Shown: piece by piece, positions 38,237 to 62,689 of the stretch
Numbering within the stretch: the stretch's first letter is position 1
Layout of the letters: the number at the start of each line of letters is the position of its first letter
Source of the DNA: Patiria pectinifera
Taxonomy: Eukaryota; Echinodermata; Asteroidea; Valvatida; Asterinidae
NCBI GenBank assembly: GCA_029964075.1
Contig: CM057144.1
Coordinates: 3,495,281 to 3,559,280, forward strand
Length of the DNA stretch: 64,000 nucleotides
Direction: 5' to 3'
Translations under genes and position numbers: made by a program
The notes under the pieces: generated by a model
Databases searched by the model: none
Seen by the model: only the letters and a program-made list of their open reading frames with translations
What the model was told of the DNA's origin: nothing

Positions 38237-39751
38237 AATAAAGCTGGTCACAGAACGCACAAATCTCTAATCGATTGATTCATACGTTTTTTTCCATACA
38301 TAATAGGCCGAATTTAGCCCATTTATTAGCGTTACGGGATAAACCTGTACGATAGCACTGCTCGGCTCTCAAGTAACAGTCAGTGATCATTGAGATGGGT
38401 AAAGGAAGACACTAGGCTGGCCCTCTGGGACCGTCAAAAACCCAGATCGCTTGAAAAAAGTCGAACATAAAGCAGCTCGCTTTGTGTGCATTGCACGTGA
38501 CAGATGTTTTCAAGTCTTGGTTGGTCATAAATCAAGGGAAATTGTATTAAGCTGTTTATTCTTTGGAAAAAAAATCATTGATGTATGCATGCGCATAAAC
38601 CCAAACGCTATACAGGGTGGTGCAAAAGAAGGAAACCCACTTTTGACAGGAGTTTTAACCCTCTTACTTTACTTAATTGAACTGTGGGGGCTTTTATAAT
38701 GTAGTGAAGTATAGCTCTTCAACCATACATGGTGAAAATATCTTTTAAAAAATCGCAAGAATAGTGTTATTATGCTAATTTGAATACAAGTCACCAAAAT
38801 CACTGTTGTCCACGTGTAAGTCTAGTGTAGTGATTTTTTTCTTCAAATCAAGCTCCGGAGCTCAGTCGAGCGGACAAACAGGTTTGGCACATGACATTTT
38901 TAAACTACCATATCTCAGAGACAAAATATGCATTTGCAATCTTTTTTTCGTCACTTACGTTTAAAGATCAATTAAAGATTATGTTTGAATTTTTGAAATA
39001 TCCTCAGCAAGTAGGTCAAAAATGTGTTGCCAAAAGGGGGTTTCCTTCTTTTTGCAGCCTGTAGGCACAAACTCTATGATAGTCAAGGTGCCAGAACATT
39101 TGTGGAAATATATGTAACCCATACAGGCACTGATCGTCATTTTATACAGGAATCGTGAAACAGTGGAATAAACGTCTACAGTATATAGGCCTAATGGATG
39201 AAATTGATAGAGCTTGTGCGTTAAGGCGGAGTTAGAGGGCACTGTTTTGTATTACTTGAACAGGCATTAGTAAACCCTTTGTGCAAGAAGCGACAAATTA
39301 TTCTCGTTCTGTGGACTAAAACACGCATAATTTTTAATAGGAAAACAACTAATTTGGCCACAATTTTGGAAGCCCTATTCGTTAAATGTGAGTGGATATA
39401 GCTGAAAGCCTGCATTAGGTATCCGTTGAGTAAACAATATGATAATGACGATAGACAGACACTGTCCATCTGTGCTGTGTTTAAGCAGTCTGTGTGTCAG
39501 TCCAAAGTACATGATTTCATTAATTGGCTGTCAGTTTAATATTTAATAGGACACTTTGAACGGTGCATGTAATTTTTCCTTTTAGGCCTAGTGCCACAAC
39601 GTACGTCTTTCACTTGTAAATGCATGATGTTGTTCAGAGAGCAGCCATTTTCACAGTCATAGTTGGCATAGAGTGCAGTCGCACTGTCGTCGAAGACTGG
39701 AGGAGATTAAGTAGAATTTGGTGGATTATTTAGTTGACCAATCCTGTCAGG
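38237..39751. other. Intergenic upstream of TMEM45-like gene
   Basis: AT-rich sequence with no recognised gene. The promoter and any 5' UTR exon of the following gene should lie in its distal part. TTATTTAG just before 39734 could be a 3' splice site for an upstream non-coding exon, but this is unproven. Confidence 0.5.
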
Positions 39752-40525
39752 ATGGGCACCTTTATAGGACATATTATCCCCGGTGTTTTCTTCATGGTCC
39801 TTGCTATATGGAACTTGCTTCGACCGTGTTTTCACTTCAGACCCTCAAGAAACACCAGTTGCTGCCACCAGTTCAAGAAGTTGCTGCTTAATCCCGTCTT
39901 CATGGAAGGAGTTGTGAAAGTCATCGGCACGGTGGCAGCTGCAATCGGGGAGCTGTGGTGGGGCGGTTGGAAGATCTCAAGTGGCGGTTCATTCAGGAGC
40001 CTCAACAATTACCAACACGCCACAATGTACAGCTTCTTCGGGCTGGCGGGACTGGTGGAGCTCCTCAGCGTGACATGCCTCAAGCTCCGGCCAGGACTTG
40101 ATAAAATATTTCAGGCCACGGCATTCGCCGTGGAAGGGTTTCTGTTTTACTACCATCTACACGGCCGTTCGGCTGTCGACGTGAGACTGCATGTTCTCTT
40201 GGTGCTTGCCATAGCTGGATGCGCCGTTGGCTCACTGTTGGAAGCTCTCGTTGACGTACCATCTGAGGCACACCCATCCTTCTTCAGATATGTGTGGATT
40301 ACTTGTACCATCCTGCAGGGCACGTGGTTTATCCAGACAGGTTTTGTACTGTACAACCCCTGGCATACTGGACCCAATTCTTGGATAAGTGATGAACTAT
40401 CGGCACTCAGTATACTGACCGCTAGCTACGCGTGGCACATACTTCTTTCTGTTTTCATCACTGCATTTGTTGACACTTTAGTGAATCTATGTGTGAGGAG
40501 AAGATCAAGACGGGATTCAAACTGA
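39752..40525 (+). CDS. TMEM45-family (DUF716) multipass membrane protein, intact single exon
   Basis: The 257-residue frame starts at the ATG giving MGTFIGHIIPGVFF, which matches the family's typical MG.F.GH..PG.FF opening; the codons before it in frame lack an ATG. Seven hydrophobic segments can be seen: about 8-23, 49-71, 88-110, 119-137, 145-167, 180-201 and 216-248. The conserved family features are HATMYSFFGLAG (89-100), EGFLFYYHLHGR (128-139) and LQGTWFIQTGFVLY (188-201). The tail is basic (RRRSRRDSN). Vertebrate TMEM45A/B are similar in length (about 275) and spread over several exons, whereas here the whole coding sequence is uninterrupted, so it may be a retrocopy under selection or an intron-poor lineage form. 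Family members sit in endomembranes or the plasma membrane; the biochemical role is not settled. The frame is free of stops and frameshifts. It is convergent with ECT2. TMEM45A and TMEM45B orthology cannot be separated. Confidence 0.9.
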   Translation: MGTFIGHIIPGVFFMVLAIWNLLRPCFHFRPSRNTSCCHQFKKLLLNPVFMEGVVKVIGTVAAAIGELWWGGWKISSGGSFRSLNNYQHATMYSFFGLAGLVELLSVTCLKLRPGLDKIFQATAFAVEGFLFYYHLHGRSAVDVRLHVLLVLAIAGCAVGSLLEALVDVPSEAHPSFFRYVWITCTILQGTWFIQTGFVLYNPWHTGPNSWISDELSALSILTASYAWHILLSVFITAFVDTLVNLCVRRRSRRDSN

Positions 40526-59100: not shown

Positions 59101-62100
59101 GTTTCACGCCTGTACTACAGGCTTACAATTCTGTGGAAAATCCCTCACACAGAGTGCATAATTATTTGTCTGCCGCAAGGTTTTCATTCGGTACCACCAT
59201 AAACCTCAATTGGGATCACAACTGTTGCATGGTGGGACCGGAGTCTTGGAGGTGGGAGTCTTGGGGTACTACATGCACATGTATTTCTCTAGAACTACCA
59301 CAACAGACCTTTATCATGCTGCCACCATTTCAGTCGTGCTCCCTGTATCCAATAACTGTACTGAATGATGATGTTTTTTTGTGCAAAAAGGAACCAGACA
59401 TTTTTGTCCTTTCAGCCTTGCTTTGGTTACATTGATTTGAATGCGAAAAAAATCACGGTGGCTGCAACATGATGATCGTCTACACGTGTGTGGGGTTTCT
59501 ACTTTTAGTTCCCAGGTGTGTTGGAACATCGACCGATGAAAGAAGTGCATTTGGCTCATAAATATGTAGCATATTTTTTATTTATTATTTTTTATTTAGC
59601 ATAATTAATGCATGATTAATTTTTATCTTCATGTTCGTAAATGGCGTCCACATCTACAGACTAACCTGTTTTTCGGCAGCACATTTATAAATGACAGGTG
59701 CCCCCAACACTCGGCAGCCGTTGCGTCTCAAGTTCTCAAAGCCTTCTCCTTCAAACTCGGTCAGAACAAAGAGCGTTTCGACTCCGGCCGGTTCTATCAC
59801 ATTCTCCATACCTGTCTCGGATGTCGTAACTGGCAAACCGAGAGTCTAAACAACAAAATGCATCAGCAATGTTATTTAAAAATGTGAAATTTTTAACTGA
59901 AAAAAACCCACAAATATTTGAGGGTAGGGCTGTGCATCGGAACCGGGTACCCGACTGCTGATGTCAGAAACCGGTTCCAGATTCACGGATCATGTGCCCA
60001 TAACAAACTTCACAAATTACTTACATGTAGTAACTTCTCAGACGATGACATAATGAAAACCGAAAGGTTTTGAATGTCATTTTTGTGGGAAATTATCAAA
60101 GTGAACACCAGGCTACATGGAAAAACAAAACAGGCTTTACGTTTCAGTCCCTGCAGGACAGGCAGGACTAGACCGCTGCTGTTTTGACTAGCATTTGGCT
60201 AGCGGGGTACGCCTAAAGTCGAACCCTGCTGCAGGACCTTTCTCAAAGGCAAAATGACAGTGGTACAGAAGCAAACAGGTTGGGGACGAGTCATTGAGCT
60301 TACCACAAATTTGATCTGCTGGTTTTGGACTGACTGTAGTTTGTATAAAGGTGTGGCAGGGGAAGGGGAATGATTTTGGGCAGTCTGTGACTGTTCGGAA
60401 CTCCGGACAGCAGTAGGGTTTTCAATTTTTCTGTGGACAAAAATATACATGTATGGCAACATTAAACAAACCTGCAAATCTTGTAGAAGCTGCTGATTGT
60501 TGGCTGTCTCTTCTCCAACAAGGCATATCCTATGCTCACAATCTACATTGAATGGAAAAAGATTTTTTTAAAAGTTGCATCCTGAGAAATTTCCACAATT
60601 CCATGAGATTCAGAAATGTATCCACTTCAACAAGTTTGCTGGGAAGTCAAGAGGTGGTTGCAGCAAAGCAACTAAGATACTGATGATACACAGGAAACTT
60701 GTTGACAAGCAATGGCCTCCTTTCATGCCCTTCTCTCTAACTAGAGCCATCTTTCAGGCTATGCAGAGACATATACATGTACAAGACAGTAAACTGGCGA
60801 AAACCCAGACTAGGACCTTAAGTGCTTAACGTTAGACTGTCAATTTTTAACTTTTAATAGTTAGAATTATACCTCCATGAATACCCCGTGGTCTGGAATG
60901 CACCTTTCTGTATAGCTAACGGAAAGGATGTCAGGTACTAGGTCCCAAATTTTCGGACTAAGTCAGCTGACAGTTGATTGATGCAGTACTGAAGAGTTGT
61001 GGGACGGATTGTTTCATGTGCCAGTCCTTAAGTTTTGAGACTCTCATACACAGTATTGAGAGTCCCAAATTTTCGGACTAGCGAAAATCTTTCCCTTCTA
61101 GGCCTATATGTCCATCCATGGTCCAACTGTTTGATCAGCCCCTGGCGTCAACATGTTCAAGGTCTCTTTTGTCTTGATATGTTTGATTGTTACCAATAAA
61201 AAACAGATATTAATAATAATAAAAGGGAAAGAATGTTGCAACCTGACGCTGCTTTTTTCTTCATTCATGTGTATATCATCTCAATTAAGGTCATTCATTG
61301 CAAAAATGACGATAAGACATGAAACTGGGACTGAGAAATATTTCCAATTTTGTTGGGAAACACTTAGAAAATTGTCTTGACTCTCCATAGACTTTGTACA
61401 CAACCACTGAAGTAGCATCAGGTTGCAACATTCTTTCCAATAATAATAGTAACAATTCTTGACAAATGACAGGCTGAACATGACCTACAAATGAAATTAG
61501 AATTTAGATATTTATTGAAGACCTAATTTCTGAACCTTAAAAACGTGACGAAAACAACAAACATGATGATGATGTCACGCCCCAACTATCGCATCGGTCC
61601 CAACTATAGTTGGGCCTGTCCCAACTATAGTTGGGCCTGTCCCAACTGTAGTTCCACAGTTGGGCTGGCCCAACTATAGTTGGGCCTGTCCCAACTATAG
61701 TCCCAACTGTAAGTTCCATTGTTGGGCTGGCCCATCTATAGTTGGGCCACTCCGATCTTTTTATTTTGCGGTGTCCCAACTATAGTTTACATTGATGTAC
61801 AACCATAAAACGTTCCCTACAGCTCTGATACACGTCTGACTTTACTGGGGACCACTGAAATTAGCTATTGATGGGGCAAATCTATAGTTGGGCCATCCCA
61901 ATCTTTTTATTTTGCGGTCCCAACTATAGTGTACATTGTTGTACGATTATAAAACATTCCCTACAACTCTAATACACATCTGACTTTACTGGGGACCAAT
62001 GAAATTATCTATGGGTGGGGACCATCTGTAGTTGGGCCACCGCAATATTTTTATTTGGCAGTCCCAACTATAGTTTACATTGATGTACGACTATAAAACA

Positions 62101-62689
62101 TTCTCTACAGCTCTGCTTACATGTCCGACTTGGGACCTTTGACATTAGCTATGGGTGGGGCCCATCTCAGAGTTGGCCGGCCATGGCAATCTTTGAATTT
62201 TGCAAAATGTTGCTGGATAATAAAACCCAGCAGCTGGACAACTCATCCAACTAGGCAGTACCACGTGACCGGCCAGCCTTGCGGCATGCATGCATGACGA
62301 ATACACGGTGCCAGCGCCACAGAACATTTAATCCAACAAGATCTATCAAGCATGAAGCATCCGGCGCAACTCCAGTCCTAACTATAGTTGGGCCGACCCA
62401 ACTGCCGCACTATATAGTTGGGACAGTCCCAACTATAGTTGGGACCGATGCGATAGTTGGGGCGTGACAATGACATTGACAAACATGAAAAATAAAGTCA
62501 AAACAGTTAGAGCAATAACATTAACAACAATAGGGCCTACCAGTTTTATATCTATTCCAAAATTTAAAAAAGTCTTAGGATGTTTATACCTGCATCTTGG
62601 TCTTGAATGGTAGTGACCGACATGCTGACTGAAGAACTGACAGTCACATCATTCAACATGTTCATCTCGCTAGCACATGCAGCCGCCAT
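44094..62689 (-). CDS. ECT2, Rho guanine nucleotide exchange factor (gene span, 21 coding exons)
   Basis: Joined coding exons in transcript order: 62689-62590, 60542-60472, 60333-60304, 59845-59666, 58892-58695, 57861-57760, 57028-56929, 56221-56115, 55497-55435, 54791-54554, 53761-53619, 52797-52612, 51905-51795, 51110-51014, 50182-50101, 49288-49069, 47868-47730, 46871-46708, 45817-45732, 45125-44927, 44183-44094. They total 2706 nt, 901 residues plus stop, close to vertebrate ECT2 (about 880-915). All introns are GT-AG and phases agree at each junction. Order: three BRCT-type units (about 38-127, 128-227, 230-320), basic NLS-like stretches (338-344, 364-366), DH domain (about 425-612), PH domain (about 617-775) and a polybasic tail (806-833). 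In animals ECT2 is recruited to the central spindle by phosphorylated centralspindlin through its BRCT units and activates RhoA for cytokinesis. The BRCT Thr/Lys phosphate-binding pair is present (T149, K178), as is the DH helix RPVQRLP (562-568). No break is seen. Start chosen at the first ATG (62689); M9 and M11 are possible alternatives. Confidence 0.95.
44927..45125 (-). CDS. ECT2 coding exon 20, polybasic tail (residues 806-872)
   Basis: Acceptor AATGGCAG|GAAA, donor GCAAAG|GTAAAT. Encodes KARRATRKVGRTFSFNKTP then RRTLQRA, the basic cluster that in vertebrate ECT2 binds membrane phosphoinositides, then ARLASTSSLNAK, similar to the RLSSTSSL motif near the vertebrate C-terminus. Confidence 0.92.
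45732..45817 (-). CDS. ECT2 coding exon 19 (residues 778-805)
   Basis: Acceptor CCTTCTCAG|GATA, donor ATGAG|GTAGGA. Encodes DNFLTKITPEELEITKSDFD, a linker between the PH domain and the polybasic tail. Confidence 0.88.
45873..46115 (+). mobile_element. tRNA-derived SINE with conserved body
   Basis: The head contains a full A box, TGGCCTAGCGG (45881-45891), and a near-perfect B box, GGTTCGAGCCT (45942-45952). It is followed by the body AAGCAAGGCACTTAACC..CCTTCGGATGGGACGTAAAG and TAGGTCCCGTGTG, and by AGAAGGGGTTTGCCCCGGTG near the 3' end. This is an old Pol III retroposon in ECT2 intron 18 (antisense to ECT2). The body resembles conserved central domains of metazoan SINEs; I have not assigned the family. 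Confidence 0.8.
46175..46611. mobile_element. hAT-like MITE with TAGGGC.GTGCAT termini
   Basis: The left end TAGGGCAGTGCATTGGAACC and the reverse complement of the right end (TAGGGTCGTGCATTTA, ending at 46611) are inverted termini. The left half is also related to 59932-60140 (GCATCGGAACCGGG.., CAGGCTACATGG). hAT-type transposons commonly have TAGGG/CAGGG-type ends; no clean 8-bp target duplication was seen. It lies across ECT2 intron 18. Confidence 0.6.
46708..46871 (-). CDS. ECT2 coding exon 18, end of PH (residues 723-777)
   Basis: Acceptor TTGTTAAG|AATG, donor GATGCT|GTGAGT. Encodes NTFGILCKPP, LYLFTLVREEPQKEDWLKTM and CKHMADVTC. W760 is the invariant Trp of the PH C-terminal helix. Confidence 0.93.
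47121..47235 (+). repeat. Dispersed repeat, partner of 51281-51391
   Basis: GGGAACCAGCCTAC, ATTATTGTCTG.CAGCCAATA and AACTAAACATG recur in the same order and orientation at 51281-51391. Both copies are in ECT2 introns. Family unknown. Confidence 0.7.
47326..47604 (-). mobile_element. tRNA-derived SINE, minus strand
   Basis: On the minus strand the head has an A box TGGCGTAGCGG (47584-47574) and a decayed B box GGTTCGCTTGC (47542-47532). Then come GGATTGGGTTTTCAGTCCC and GGGTTTTCCTCAGAATATTC and an AATAAATAAATAAA tail. It is a different SINE family from the one at 45873 and sits in ECT2 intron 17, in the sense orientation. Confidence 0.75.
47730..47868 (-). CDS. ECT2 coding exon 17, PH (residues 677-722)
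   Basis: Acceptor TTGTAACAG|ATCT, donor GGAAG|GTAAAG. Encodes ICKRRGKPGASFKSP and YKHIELVPLSHIRRILDVQE, the middle of the PH domain. Confidence 0.94.
48411..48927. mobile_element. MITE-like element with ACTTAAAGGGAAT termini
   Basis: ACTTAAAGGGAATATAC at the left and GTGCATTCCCTTTAAGT at the right are inverted termini about 515 bp apart, with a non-coding interior. It lies in ECT2 intron 16. Confidence 0.6.
49069..49288 (-). CDS. ECT2 coding exon 16, DH-PH junction (residues 603-676)
   Basis: Acceptor TTGGCCAG|ACAC, donor TTAGAG|GTCAGT. Encodes HINEDKRKTEGHTQMFEV, ending the DH domain, then LLSAHRSFVMRADM and SISMFLFSDTLE, the first strands of the PH domain. Confidence 0.95.
49485..49655. 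repeat. GGTCTCGAGACC-rich repeat fragment
   Basis: Several variants of AAGGTCTCG, CTCGAGACC, GGTCTCAAGA and CGAGACC in both orientations within 170 bp, a pattern of nested short inverted repeats. It is in ECT2 intron 15; family unknown. Confidence 0.45.
50101..50182 (-). CDS. ECT2 coding exon 15, DH (residues 576-602)
   Basis: Acceptor CATTACAG|ATTT, donor ACCGA|GTAAGT, phase 2 at its end. Encodes DLQKRTPEGHIERDHLAQ then AVDSLRKVT, part of the late DH helices. Confidence 0.92.
50369..50426. repeat. Hairpin: inverted repeat around CCATGGATCACC
   Basis: The 20-bp arm 50369-50388 (CCTCCCGAGGTGATCCATGG) pairs with 50407-50426 with two mismatches across an 18-nt loop. It is followed by TATAACACTTCACCCACA, like the repeat at 43289, so it may be the end of a mobile element. 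Confidence 0.65.
50690..50842 (-). repeat. Dispersed repeat, inverted copy of 43289-43424
   Basis: Reverse complement of the 43289 repeat, with the 20-mer GTATAGTACTTTGGTTGCTA in two copies plus a decayed third between about 50694 and 50750. Confidence 0.7.
51014..51110 (-). CDS. ECT2 coding exon 14, DH CR3 (residues 544-575)
   Basis: Acceptor GGATTAG|ATTT, donor CTGTCAG|GTAAGT. Encodes KPECGRQTLTELLIRPVQRL, the CR3 helix that contacts Rho GTPase, the most conserved part of the exchange domain. Confidence 0.95.
51281..51391 (+). repeat. Dispersed repeat, partner of 47121-47235
   Basis: Same family as the 47121 copy, in ECT2 intron 13. Confidence 0.7.
51795..51905 (-). CDS. ECT2 coding exon 13, DH (residues 507-543)
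   Basis: Acceptor CCTTTCAG|TCAG, donor CTCAAG|GTAATA. Encodes YPAFVNFFELSKQTV and KQKPRFHAFLK, the CR2 helices of the DH domain. Confidence 0.94.
52160..52470. repeat. Dispersed repeat with foldback head, copy B
   Basis: Partner of 34385-34755. The head is an inverted repeat: GGAATCATTTGCCTGGCTATC near 52170 against GATAGCCAGGCGACTGATTTC near 52246. It lies in ECT2 intron 12. A related stretch, AGGAAATCAGCT..GAGGAAAAGTT, occurs just upstream at about 52098 and again at about 59079. Confidence 0.7.
52612..52797 (-). CDS. ECT2 coding exon 12, DH (residues 445-506)
   Basis: Acceptor TGATGATAG|GTC, donor AAGCAT|GTAAGA. Encodes GGPILDQEEIKTIFSKIPE and LQEDLEKLLDDYSEDKSIA, closely matching vertebrate ECT2 in the CR1-CR2 region. 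Confidence 0.94.
53098..53280 (+). repeat. Dispersed repeat, partner of 59311-59495
   Basis: TTTATCATGCTGCCACCATT, CATGCTCCCTGTAT.CAATAAC and GGCTGCAACATGAT occur in the same order and orientation at 59311. In ECT2 intron 11. Confidence 0.8.
53619..53761 (-). CDS. ECT2 coding exon 11, start of DH (residues 397-444)
   Basis: Acceptor GCCATCAG|ATCG, donor ATTACG|GTAAGT. Carries two TP motifs (CTP, DTP) followed by ELLQTETNYVGILHTII, the first conserved helix (CR1) of the Dbl-homology domain. Confidence 0.93.
54347..54486 (-). repeat. Dispersed repeat, inverted partner of 58048-58166
   Basis: On the minus strand it reads GAGTCTGTGGTCACCAACTG, AGGATACAAC, CATTGTTC and CA.ACTTTTA.AC, the same order as on the plus strand at 58048. 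Between exons 10 and 11 of ECT2. Confidence 0.65.
54554..54791 (-). CDS. ECT2 coding exon 10, linker with NLS (residues 318-396)
   Basis: Acceptor TTGAGTAG|ATGG, donor AAATG|GTACAT. Encodes the central regulatory linker: TP sites (NTPGNTP), RKRRRLK (338-344), a second basic stretch PKRR, and SASSLLDATPDES. In vertebrates this S-loop holds the nuclear localisation signal and Cdk/Plk1 phosphosites. GC content is clearly higher than in the neighbouring introns. Confidence 0.92.
54841..55434. other. ECT2 intron 9, nothing recognised
   Basis: AT-rich intron sequence without an identifiable element. Confidence 0.5.
55435..55497 (-). CDS. ECT2 coding exon 9, end of BRCT2 (residues 297-317)
   Basis: 63 nt; acceptor TCGCACAG|TGG, donor CACAGG|GTAAGA. 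Encodes WFWASVQMDACADESLYSY, the conserved BRCT Trp helix. Confidence 0.93.
55905..55970 (+). mobile_element. tRNA-like relic (SINE head)
   Basis: GTGGG-TTCAAGT-CCCAC (55938-55954) forms a perfect T arm with a B box GGTTCAAGTCC, preceded by a degenerate A-box-like TGGTACTCAAGTGG. There is no complete cloverleaf, so it is a tRNA-derived relic rather than a tRNA gene. Confidence 0.4.
56115..56221 (-). CDS. ECT2 coding exon 8, BRCT2 (residues 261-296)
   Basis: Acceptor TTGTCAG|GTGG, donor CAAGAG|GTAGGT. Encodes GGTYAEVEDSTCTHLVIED and ends KRVKQE, the strand and helix before the BRCT2 Trp motif. Confidence 0.93.
56929..57028 (-). CDS. ECT2 coding exon 7, start of BRCT2 (residues 228-260)
   Basis: Acceptor GCATACAG|TTGC, donor ACAAG|GTAATT, ending phase 1. 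Encodes APFFKCVLAFVGFSAEEQ, matching the PPFQDCILSFLGFSDEE motif of vertebrate ECT2. Confidence 0.93.
57093..57344. repeat. Tandem duplication, 126-bp unit, two copies
   Basis: CTTTGTGGGGTGGGTGGCAT starts at 57093 and again at 57219. Each copy contains internal repeats of GTTATGCGGGGTAGGT, so it is a repeat within a repeat. Because 126 is a multiple of 3, it yields a repetitive open frame that is not a gene. In ECT2 intron 6. Confidence 0.85.
57346..57427. mobile_element. Short Tigger/pogo-like MITE
   Basis: 82 bp bounded by CAGTTGACTCTC and GAGAGTCGACTG as inverted termini, flanked on both sides by TA (57344-57345 and 57428-57429), the target site of the Tc1/mariner-pogo superfamily. No coding capacity. 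Confidence 0.65.
57760..57861 (-). CDS. ECT2 coding exon 6, end of BRCT1 (residues 194-227)
   Basis: Acceptor TTTGCAG|GTGG, donor GCTATG|GTGAGC. Encodes VAVSLGTPIMTKEWINTAW, with the conserved Trp of the BRCT C-terminal helix, nearly identical to vertebrate ECT2. Confidence 0.95.
58048..58166 (+). repeat. Dispersed repeat, inverted partner of 54347-54486
   Basis: Shares GAGTCTGTGGTCACCAACTG and following blocks with the 54347 copy. Confidence 0.65.
58277..58418. mobile_element. 142-bp MITE with ~50-bp terminal inverted repeats
   Basis: The left arm AATAAGCCTCTGTACTGACG and onward through TTGTTTAC pairs with the right arm ending ..TCAGTACAGACGCTTATT, about 50 bp with several mismatches, around a short unique centre. 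In ECT2 intron 5. Confidence 0.75.
58695..58892 (-). CDS. ECT2 coding exon 5, BRCT1 (residues 128-193)
   Basis: Acceptor ATTACAG|CCG, donor TACAGG|GTAAGC. Encodes SRPLYCCHMSQLVICFTGF then LVHHMGGSVRRDFSAKVTHL. T149 in CFTGF and K178 in KVTHL are the pair that binds phosphopeptide in BRCT domains, so centralspindlin binding is probably intact. Confidence 0.95.
59311..59495 (+). repeat. Dispersed repeat, partner of 53098-53280
   Basis: Same family and orientation as the 53098 copy; in ECT2 intron 4. Confidence 0.8.
59666..59845 (-). CDS. ECT2 coding exon 4 (residues 68-127)
   Basis: Acceptor TTGTTTAG|ACTC, donor AAACAG|GTTAGT, phase 0 at both ends. Encodes the remainder of the N-terminal BRCT-type unit, including VETLFVLTEFEGEGFENL and CRVLGAPVIYKCA, parallel to vertebrate ECT2 FVVTDF..CRVIGPPVVLNC. 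Confidence 0.92.
59932..60140. repeat. Fragment related to the 46175 hAT-like element
   Basis: TAGGGCTGTGCATCGGAACC, CTGATGTCAG, AACTTCTCAGAC and CAGGCTACATGG match the 46175 element in order; the right terminus is not seen, so it is probably truncated. In ECT2 intron 3. Confidence 0.6.
60304..60333 (-). CDS. ECT2 microexon 3 (residues 58-67)
   Basis: Only 30 nt, encoding SVQNQQIKFV. The acceptor CTACAG follows a strong pyrimidine tract (CATTCCCCTTCCCCTGCC on the minus strand) and the donor is GTG|GTAAGC. It is needed to bridge exons 2 and 4 in phase 0 and supplies the IK.FV strand. Other in-phase acceptors further upstream (after TCACAG) or nearer (after AACCAG) are possible, so the 5' edge is less certain than the donor. 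Confidence 0.65.
60472..60542 (-). CDS. ECT2 coding exon 2 (residues 34-57)
   Basis: Acceptor AATGTAG|ATTG, donor TTGCAG|GTTTGT. Encodes the first strand of the N-terminal BRCT-type unit, RICLVGEETANNQQLL, which aligns with RVILVQEAGKQEEL of vertebrate ECT2. Confidence 0.85.
61211..61450. mobile_element. Foldback MITE with GAATGTTGCAACCTGA arms
   Basis: TAATAATAATAAAAGGG..GAATGTTGCAACCTGACGCT at the left and AGCATCAGGTTGCAACATTC..AATAATA at the right are inverted arms of about 40 bp. In ECT2 intron 1. Confidence 0.7.
61573..62469. mobile_element. 897-bp TIR element with CCCAACTATAGTTGGG palindromes and internal ~145-bp repeats
   Basis: The outermost 42 bp (beginning TGTCACGCCCCAACTATCGC) are perfectly inverted at both ends, flanked by ATGA on each side (61569-61572 and 62470-62473), a possible 4-bp target duplication. 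The perfect 16-bp palindrome CCCAACTATAGTTGGG occurs at 61599, 61620, 61669 and 62428, with several decayed copies. The interior has about four tandem units of 143-146 bp, marked by ATCTTTTTATTTTGCGG near 61755, 61901, 62045 and 62188. There is no transposase. It is a recently active-looking non-autonomous DNA transposon in ECT2 intron 1; I do not recognise the superfamily. Confidence 0.85.
62590..62689 (-). CDS. ECT2 coding exon 1 (residues 1-33)
   Basis: Begins ATGGCGGCTGCATG and encodes MAAACASEMNMLND..; donor CAG|GTATAA, phase 1. It is Ser/Thr-rich with no domain. Just upstream, TTTCTGTGTAG at about 62714-62724 on the minus strand could be an acceptor, so a separate 5' UTR exon is possible. 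Confidence 0.8.

Follow-up and report, generated by a model that had tools for sequence, protein, structure and literature searches.

The sequence between positions 61573 and 62469 of the window (the whole stretch of DNA analysed here, 64,000 nucleotides) is best explained as a young non-autonomous DNA transposon of the cut-and-paste type with TG..CA ends, moved in the way proposed below, and we put the probability of this overall explanation at about 80%. Recognition of a transposon in the original prediction is supported by genomic copies that share the same ends and carry target-site duplications (TSDs). The features of the element and its borders are as follows, in order of position.

61569..61572: left TSD, ATGA, with T-G outside it at 61567-61568; fits the family target TR-NNNN-YA
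61573..62469, + strand: complete non-autonomous element, 897 bp, without visible coding capacity
61573..61614, + strand: left terminal inverted repeat (TIR), perfect over 42 bp and, allowing one mismatch, extending over 57 bp to 61629
61599..61614: first copy of the palindrome CCCAACTATAGTTGGG, lying in the left TIR; left-end copy intact in 38 of 40 genomic copies
61615..61746, + strand: remaining left palindrome array, with full, partial and decayed palindromes whose number differs among genomic copies
61620..61635: palindrome, copy 2, offset from copy 1 by 21 bp
61669..61684: palindrome, copy 3, perfect over 20 bp at 61667-61686
61734..62204, + strand: 144-bp tandem repeats, three units and a fragment, with an inverted half-site pair in each unit
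62205..62371, + strand: interior in which no repeats were found
62372..62427, - strand: remainder of the palindrome array on the right, which is shorter than that on the left
62428..62469, - strand: right TIR, perfect over 42 bp and, allowing one mismatch, extending over 57 bp from 62413
62428..62443: palindrome, copy 4, part of the right TIR, perfect over 20 bp at 62426-62445; right-end copy intact in 38 of 40 genomic copies
62470..62473: right TSD, ATGA, followed by C-A at 62474-62475

Ends of the element

The perfect 42-bp TIRs of the original prediction are present as described: positions 1-42 match throughout, position 43 is a mismatch, and 56 of 57 positions agree through position 57. 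With one gap allowed, the match between the arms extends over about 93 bp, and blastn aligned 97 bp of one arm with 116 bp of the other at 77% identity. Single-strand folding of the element is much stronger than that of 20 shuffles (z -12), and the longest stop-free stretch inside its 897 bp is 70 codons.

ATGA stands immediately outside both ends, and none of the other boundary offsets examined (-3 to +11) yields a direct repeat of more than 2 bp. When local 4-mers are drawn at random from either flank, 0.5-1.2% of the pairs are identical, and this single match is therefore not strong evidence alone, but the genomic copies also show 4-bp TSDs, and the duplication that had been proposed as possible is thereby confirmed. 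The CACTA/Chapaev/Transib group was rejected, as most of its members have CA..TG termini according to the available text of PMC12730594, whereas the element has TG..CA ends and shifting its end to CAC gives no direct repeat.

Genomic copies and age of the family

The search for further copies in the assembly (613.5 Mb in 1020 contigs) yielded 491 candidates, of which 40 were scored and gave at least 175 matches; the matches listed include 42 near-complete copies, the window's own being one of them, with 88-100% identity. The 25-bp end, with up to two mismatches, occurs 202 and 205 times on the two strands of the assembly (407 places in total), and a reversed 25-bp control pattern occurs 0 and 0 times. 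The aligned set (n = 40) comprises the window copy and 40 of the 41 other near-complete copies, minus L043, which was left out for a nested insert in its left end. Gaps aside, these copies differ from their consensus by 1.1% on average and from each other by 2.1%, with 0.1% for the closest pair. The low distance to the consensus indicates a young family, in agreement with the recent mobility that had been predicted from the identical ends.

The further copies end at the same TG/CA, the termini of the family being fixed as TGTCACGC..GCGTGACA; neither of the two outcomes that the original prediction named as refuting it, a lack of other copies or ends at different places, was thus observed. Positions of the element adjoining both ends are nearly invariant among the 40 copies (TGT at the left end is missing in two, L010 and L019), and positions outside it vary, the target motif excepted. 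Within 30 of the 40 copies the two 42-bp arms are identical to each other. L012 and L014 have common flanks and may therefore be one insertion on two contigs; the flanks of L069 and L070 are likewise shared. No matches to the element were found in phages, IMG/VR or GTDB genomes, as expected for animal DNA, and no Rfam family reached its gathering score in window positions 33000-64000.

Target site

A perfect 4-bp TSD flanks 24 of the 40 aligned copies against an expectation of 0.23 per 40 from mispaired flanks, with a 5-bp TSD in one and a 6-bp TSD in none. In a larger sample, the 65 retrieved copies in which both ends are present, the 4-bp TSD is perfect in 42 (40 of 63 if the two flank-sharing pairs are counted once each), and two copies have a 5-bp TSD. 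The base next to the TSD in these 65 copies is a purine on the left in 61 and a pyrimidine on the right in 59, and one base further outward T occurs in 52 on the left and A in 50 on the right. Among 23 copies of the first set with a perfect TSD (L014 being omitted as the double of L012), a purine precedes the TSD in 23 and a pyrimidine follows it in 23, with T in 17 and A in 16 as the next base outward. The information content, counted outward from both ends in 39 copies, is 0.66 bits at position 5 and 0.68 bits at position 6, as compared with 0.12-0.26 bits at positions 1-4. Thus, the insertion target of the family is a symmetric TR-[NNNN]-YA, to which the window's own site, TG-ATGA-CA, conforms. 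The core itself is diverse: none of the perfect TSDs listed (24 and 19 more) is CCGG, CCGT or ACGG, and TATA was found in two of 42 (L027 and L054).

A perfect 4-bp TSD is absent from 23 of the 65 copies (two of these have 5 bp), which is many for a family diverged by 1%, so that copy-to-copy exchange or untidy joining must be assumed. The 16 such copies of the first set retain the motif, with T at -6 in 12 and A at +6 in 14, and hence were probably also inserted at 4-bp spacing and later altered or untidily joined. In L011, L026, L034 and L045, for example, the 4-bp duplication is imperfect and the flanking motif is kept; several of the imperfect duplications differ by one mismatch.

Palindromes and internal repeats

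The exact 16-bp palindrome CCCAACTATAGTTGGG occurs four times in the window, as originally counted, starting at 61599, 61620, 61669 and 62428. With up to three mismatches there are ten matches in the window, all within the element, against a shuffle mean of 0.26. Its half-sites, CCCAACTATAG and CTATAGTTGGG, occur 28 times within the 897 bp at up to two mismatches, in largely alternating directions, and four times in the surrounding 28.9 kb of non-satellite DNA, where exact half-sites number zero. The first palindromes of the left array, full or partial, follow each other at start-to-start distances of 21, 21, 28, 21 and 41 bp; three of the first four are thus 21 bp, about two helical turns.

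About four internal repeats of 145 bp had been predicted. Tandem repeats are indeed present, but with a period of 144 bp and as three units and a fragment (3.2 copies). When the three repeats are compared, 21 of 22 half-site columns are invariant as against 88 of 130 other columns (Fisher p 0.004), and five of 152 circular placements do equally well.

The palindrome array varies among the 40 copies, which contain three palindromes in eight cases, four in 14, five in 15 and six in three. Most of the changes in number affect the left array, where lengths often differ in roughly 21-bp steps, and gaps are 25 times commoner in consensus positions 1-190 than elsewhere. Length also varies by whole internal units: L060 and L063-L065 (727-775 bp) align as lacking one 144-bp unit and have TSDs, whereas L058, slightly longer than 1 kb, aligns as if it had one extra. 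Variants of 518 bp and 588 bp retain both ends and 4-bp TSDs, and L072 is reduced to 167 bp of arm sequence and lacks a matching 4-bp TSD.

From their symmetry, their spacing of about two turns and their conservation, we infer with a slight preference that the palindromes are binding sites of the mobilising enzyme. This role, suggested in the original prediction, receives mild support from the half-site substitutions and from the conservation between internal repeats. Substitutions affect 0.58% of half-site positions versus 1.10% of other non-CpG positions, a difference given without a significance test, and 0.3-0.5% of positions in the outer 42 bp. Each end, moreover, has an intact first palindrome in 38 of 40 copies. 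A somewhat less favoured but still serious alternative is that the palindromes arose as a by-product of tandem duplication of an AT-centred dyad, or serve as host-factor sites, and that mobility depends on the outer 25 bp only. Arrays of three to six palindromes, TSDs on copies of many sizes and the arm-only L072, even though it lacks the 4-bp match, are in line with this alternative. When gaps are counted, half-site columns are also more variable than the others (5.1% versus 2.0%) owing to gains and losses of units in the left array, which means that palindrome number is under no tight constraint. Against it stand the intact outermost palindromes, the lower substitution of half-sites and their conservation between the internal repeats.

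Search for an autonomous partner

A full-length copy with the same TIR and a transposase, whose existence the original prediction had proposed to check, was sought among the first 100 of the 407 TIR places, and no transposase-coding copy was found there. All five spans longer than 1.2 kb between inward-facing TIRs were fetched from these places, together with some shorter spans, and the remaining pairs were assessed from their spacing alone. The long copies among those fetched contain unrelated inserts. In L049/L050 (contig C8, 11.2 kb between TIRs), element positions 1-692 and 683-897 flank a foreign insert that has separate termini, TAGCCC..GGGCTA, and a 10-bp duplication. The insert encodes a match to DUF6589 (5.6e-8), a domain which we take to be associated with Academ, two weaker DUF6589 matches below the cut-off and, on the opposite strand, a Helicase_C match (1.2e-9). 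Since AcademH elements are described in the accessible part of PMC10045372 as having a helicase and 9-10 bp TSDs, the insert was rejected as the partner and is read as an AcademH-like element nested inside a copy of the transposon.

In L051-L053 (C11, 16.4 kb), which was examined by a listing of open frames, element positions 875-397 and 399-1 flank an insert bounded by GCCCTTACC.. and adjoining TA. Parts of the element flank two foreign stretches in L054 (C11, 2.3 kb), and single inserts were found in L055 (C10, 1.5 kb) and L056 (C1, 1.3 kb); L057, slightly longer than 1 kb, also contains an insert.

For 19 of the 21 unpaired ends in the listed 100 places, about 1.2 kb was fetched (C4:3371911 and C5:10730081 were left out); three additional single ends were covered by the existing copies L035, L038 and L045. 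In ten of the 19 a second end follows, after 829-946 bp in nine cases and after 167 bp in L072. The other nine (L071, L073, L078, L080-L082 and L084-L086) have no second end and are truncated, rearranged or interrupted. Two of these nine were traced further. In L085/L088 (C10), a palindrome is interrupted by roughly 2.5 kb of inserted DNA that gives a weak THAP match (1.1e-4, 23.4 bits versus a cut-off of 23.9), and the element resumes beyond the insert up to the other end; in L073/L089, an insert of about 3 kb is followed by element part 591-814 only. No partner was recognised in the fetched spans, the 19 fetched single ends and the two traced ends from the first 100 of the 407 places, and a coding partner may sit among the other 307 or carry diverged ends.

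Inspection of the left arm of L043 by eye showed a nested element, about 160 bp long and bounded by TCCGGTTCGTAAG..CTTACGAACAGGA, placed at TA in the middle of a palindrome. Three cases, L043, L085/L088 and L073, hint that the AT-centred palindromes attract other insertions.

Proposed mechanism

The TG..CA ends and the 4-bp duplication point to an enzyme of the integrase type that acts in trans, and with the R/Y-flanked target they make such an enzyme the probable agent of mobility. An integrase-type DDE enzyme, similar to that of Ginger or to the Gypsy integrase and supplied by a separate element, would bind the CCCAACTATAG half-sites on the palindromes as a dimer, pair the two arms, cut at the TG/CA ends and join the cut ends to the target 4 bp apart. 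Given the spacing of about two helical turns in the left array, the bound dimers would face the same side of the DNA. Half-sites in the 144-bp repeats may contribute further binding, and slippage or unequal exchange would shift the number of units in the array.

A transposase from outside the integrase group, for example of AcademX, with TG..CA ends that are coincidental, is unlikely but deserves consideration. TSDs of AcademX are 3 or 4 bp in the available text of PMC10045372, and PlavakaA, from another clade and with 2-bp TSDs, nonetheless has TGT..ACA ends in that of PMC12730594, so that the enzyme cannot be told from the terminal letters by themselves. On the other hand, the 4-bp target with its symmetric R/Y flanks resembles the RTATAY of Ginger2 as given in the accessible part of PMC2836005 and argues for the integrase type. 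Within that type, the stronger claim of a new transposon lineage, defined by a free 4-bp core in a strict TR-[4]-YA and by variable-number arrays of 16-bp palindromic sites as ends, appears improbable; if it were true, the number of repeats could serve to adjust the strength of an end.

Least probable, with only a slim chance, is a solo LTR of a Gypsy-like retrotransposon, in which a retroviral-type integrase would produce the ends, TSD and target and the repeats would be U3 enhancers. It agrees with the TG..CA ends and 4-bp TSD and with TATAAA at 61948 and 62092 and AATAAA at 62219. However, the TIR (57 bp at 98%, about 93-97 bp overall) greatly exceeds the inverted repeats that LTRs usually have at their ends. 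Among the first 100 of the 407 TIR places no two in the same direction lie 3-10 kb apart, and the 518-bp and 588-bp variants with both ends and 4-bp TSDs also speak against an LTR, although the TGTNR start is common to Gypsy LTRs in the available text of PMC2836005.

Surroundings and significance

Positions 1-33073 of the window are a satellite array of 144.5 copies of a 229-bp unit, followed by a second array up to 34161 (unit of about 219 bp, 5.1 copies). A 273-bp stretch at 35127-35399 matches its own reverse complement at 90% and is probably a further foldback element of small size. The DUF716 domain (E 3.3e-21) encoded by an open frame at 39734-40522 is presumably of the TMEM45 type. Just upstream of the transposon, at 61226-61438, lies another inverted-repeat element with 29-bp arms at 93% around AGAATGTTGCAACCTGA, and similar sequence is visible by eye in L086.

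For most readers this will be another non-autonomous transposon family of an animal genome. Being young, with hundreds of ends and a naturally varying palindrome number, the family offers a series for studying how repeated end sites set mobility, and its strict target rule could help to find the missing enzyme.

Comparison with known systems

As far as the literature search shows, the family is undescribed: no account of it and no mention of the palindrome CCCAACTATAGTTGGG were found in the literature searched, which for the family is weak evidence, as repeat libraries such as Repbase lay outside the search. Among integrase-type elements, Ginger1 is described in the available text of PMC2836005 as having a TGTNR start, TIRs of 40-270 bp, 4-bp TSDs, a CCGG or CCGT/ACGG target and non-autonomous copies with shared ends. 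The element is similar in its TGTCA start, its TIR (42 bp perfect, about 93-97 bp imperfect) and its 4-bp TSD, but the CCGG or CCGT/ACGG target is absent from its listed perfect TSDs, and no Ginger1 transposase (Gypsy-integrase-like, with YPYY, H2C2, DDE and GPY/F) was seen at the first 100 of the 407 TIR places. For Ginger2/TDD the same text gives a TGTNR start, TIRs of about 50-180 bp and TSDs of 4-5 bp (4 bp in metazoans). The element shares this start, the TIR length, the 4-bp TSD and the R and Y around a 4-bp core. Ginger2 prefers RTATAY, whereas here the core is free and T and A are added outside (TR-NNNN-YA). Because its target differs from those of both, we file the element as neither, though the mechanism may well be alike. 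By description only, the 4-bp TSD also falls within the 3-4 bp of AcademX (PMC10045372, available part); the Academ-like protein encountered in L049/L050 belongs to the nested insertion.

In layout, the element has the long TIRs, tandem subrepeats, non-coding sequence and many copies of a foldback-like non-autonomous TIR element, which is a descriptive class. Tetris of Drosophila virilis, a non-autonomous foldback element whose autonomous partner was not found, likewise has long TIRs and internal tandem repeats that vary in number by copy, but its TSDs are 8-10 bp, its TIRs reach 1,735 bp, its 220-bp repeats lie inside the TIRs and the accessible portion of the source reports no palindrome array (PMC4079207). 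Galileo, of the P superfamily, also has TIRs lengthened by tandem repeats (PMC4168063, available text), and these repeats are said to contain extra transposase-binding sites (PMC4079207, same portion). It differs in its 7-8 bp TSDs, its THAP-domain transposase and its palindrome, which lies at the target and not within the element, according to the available text of PMC4168063. With Tetris and Galileo as precedents, the layout of the element is a variation on a known theme.
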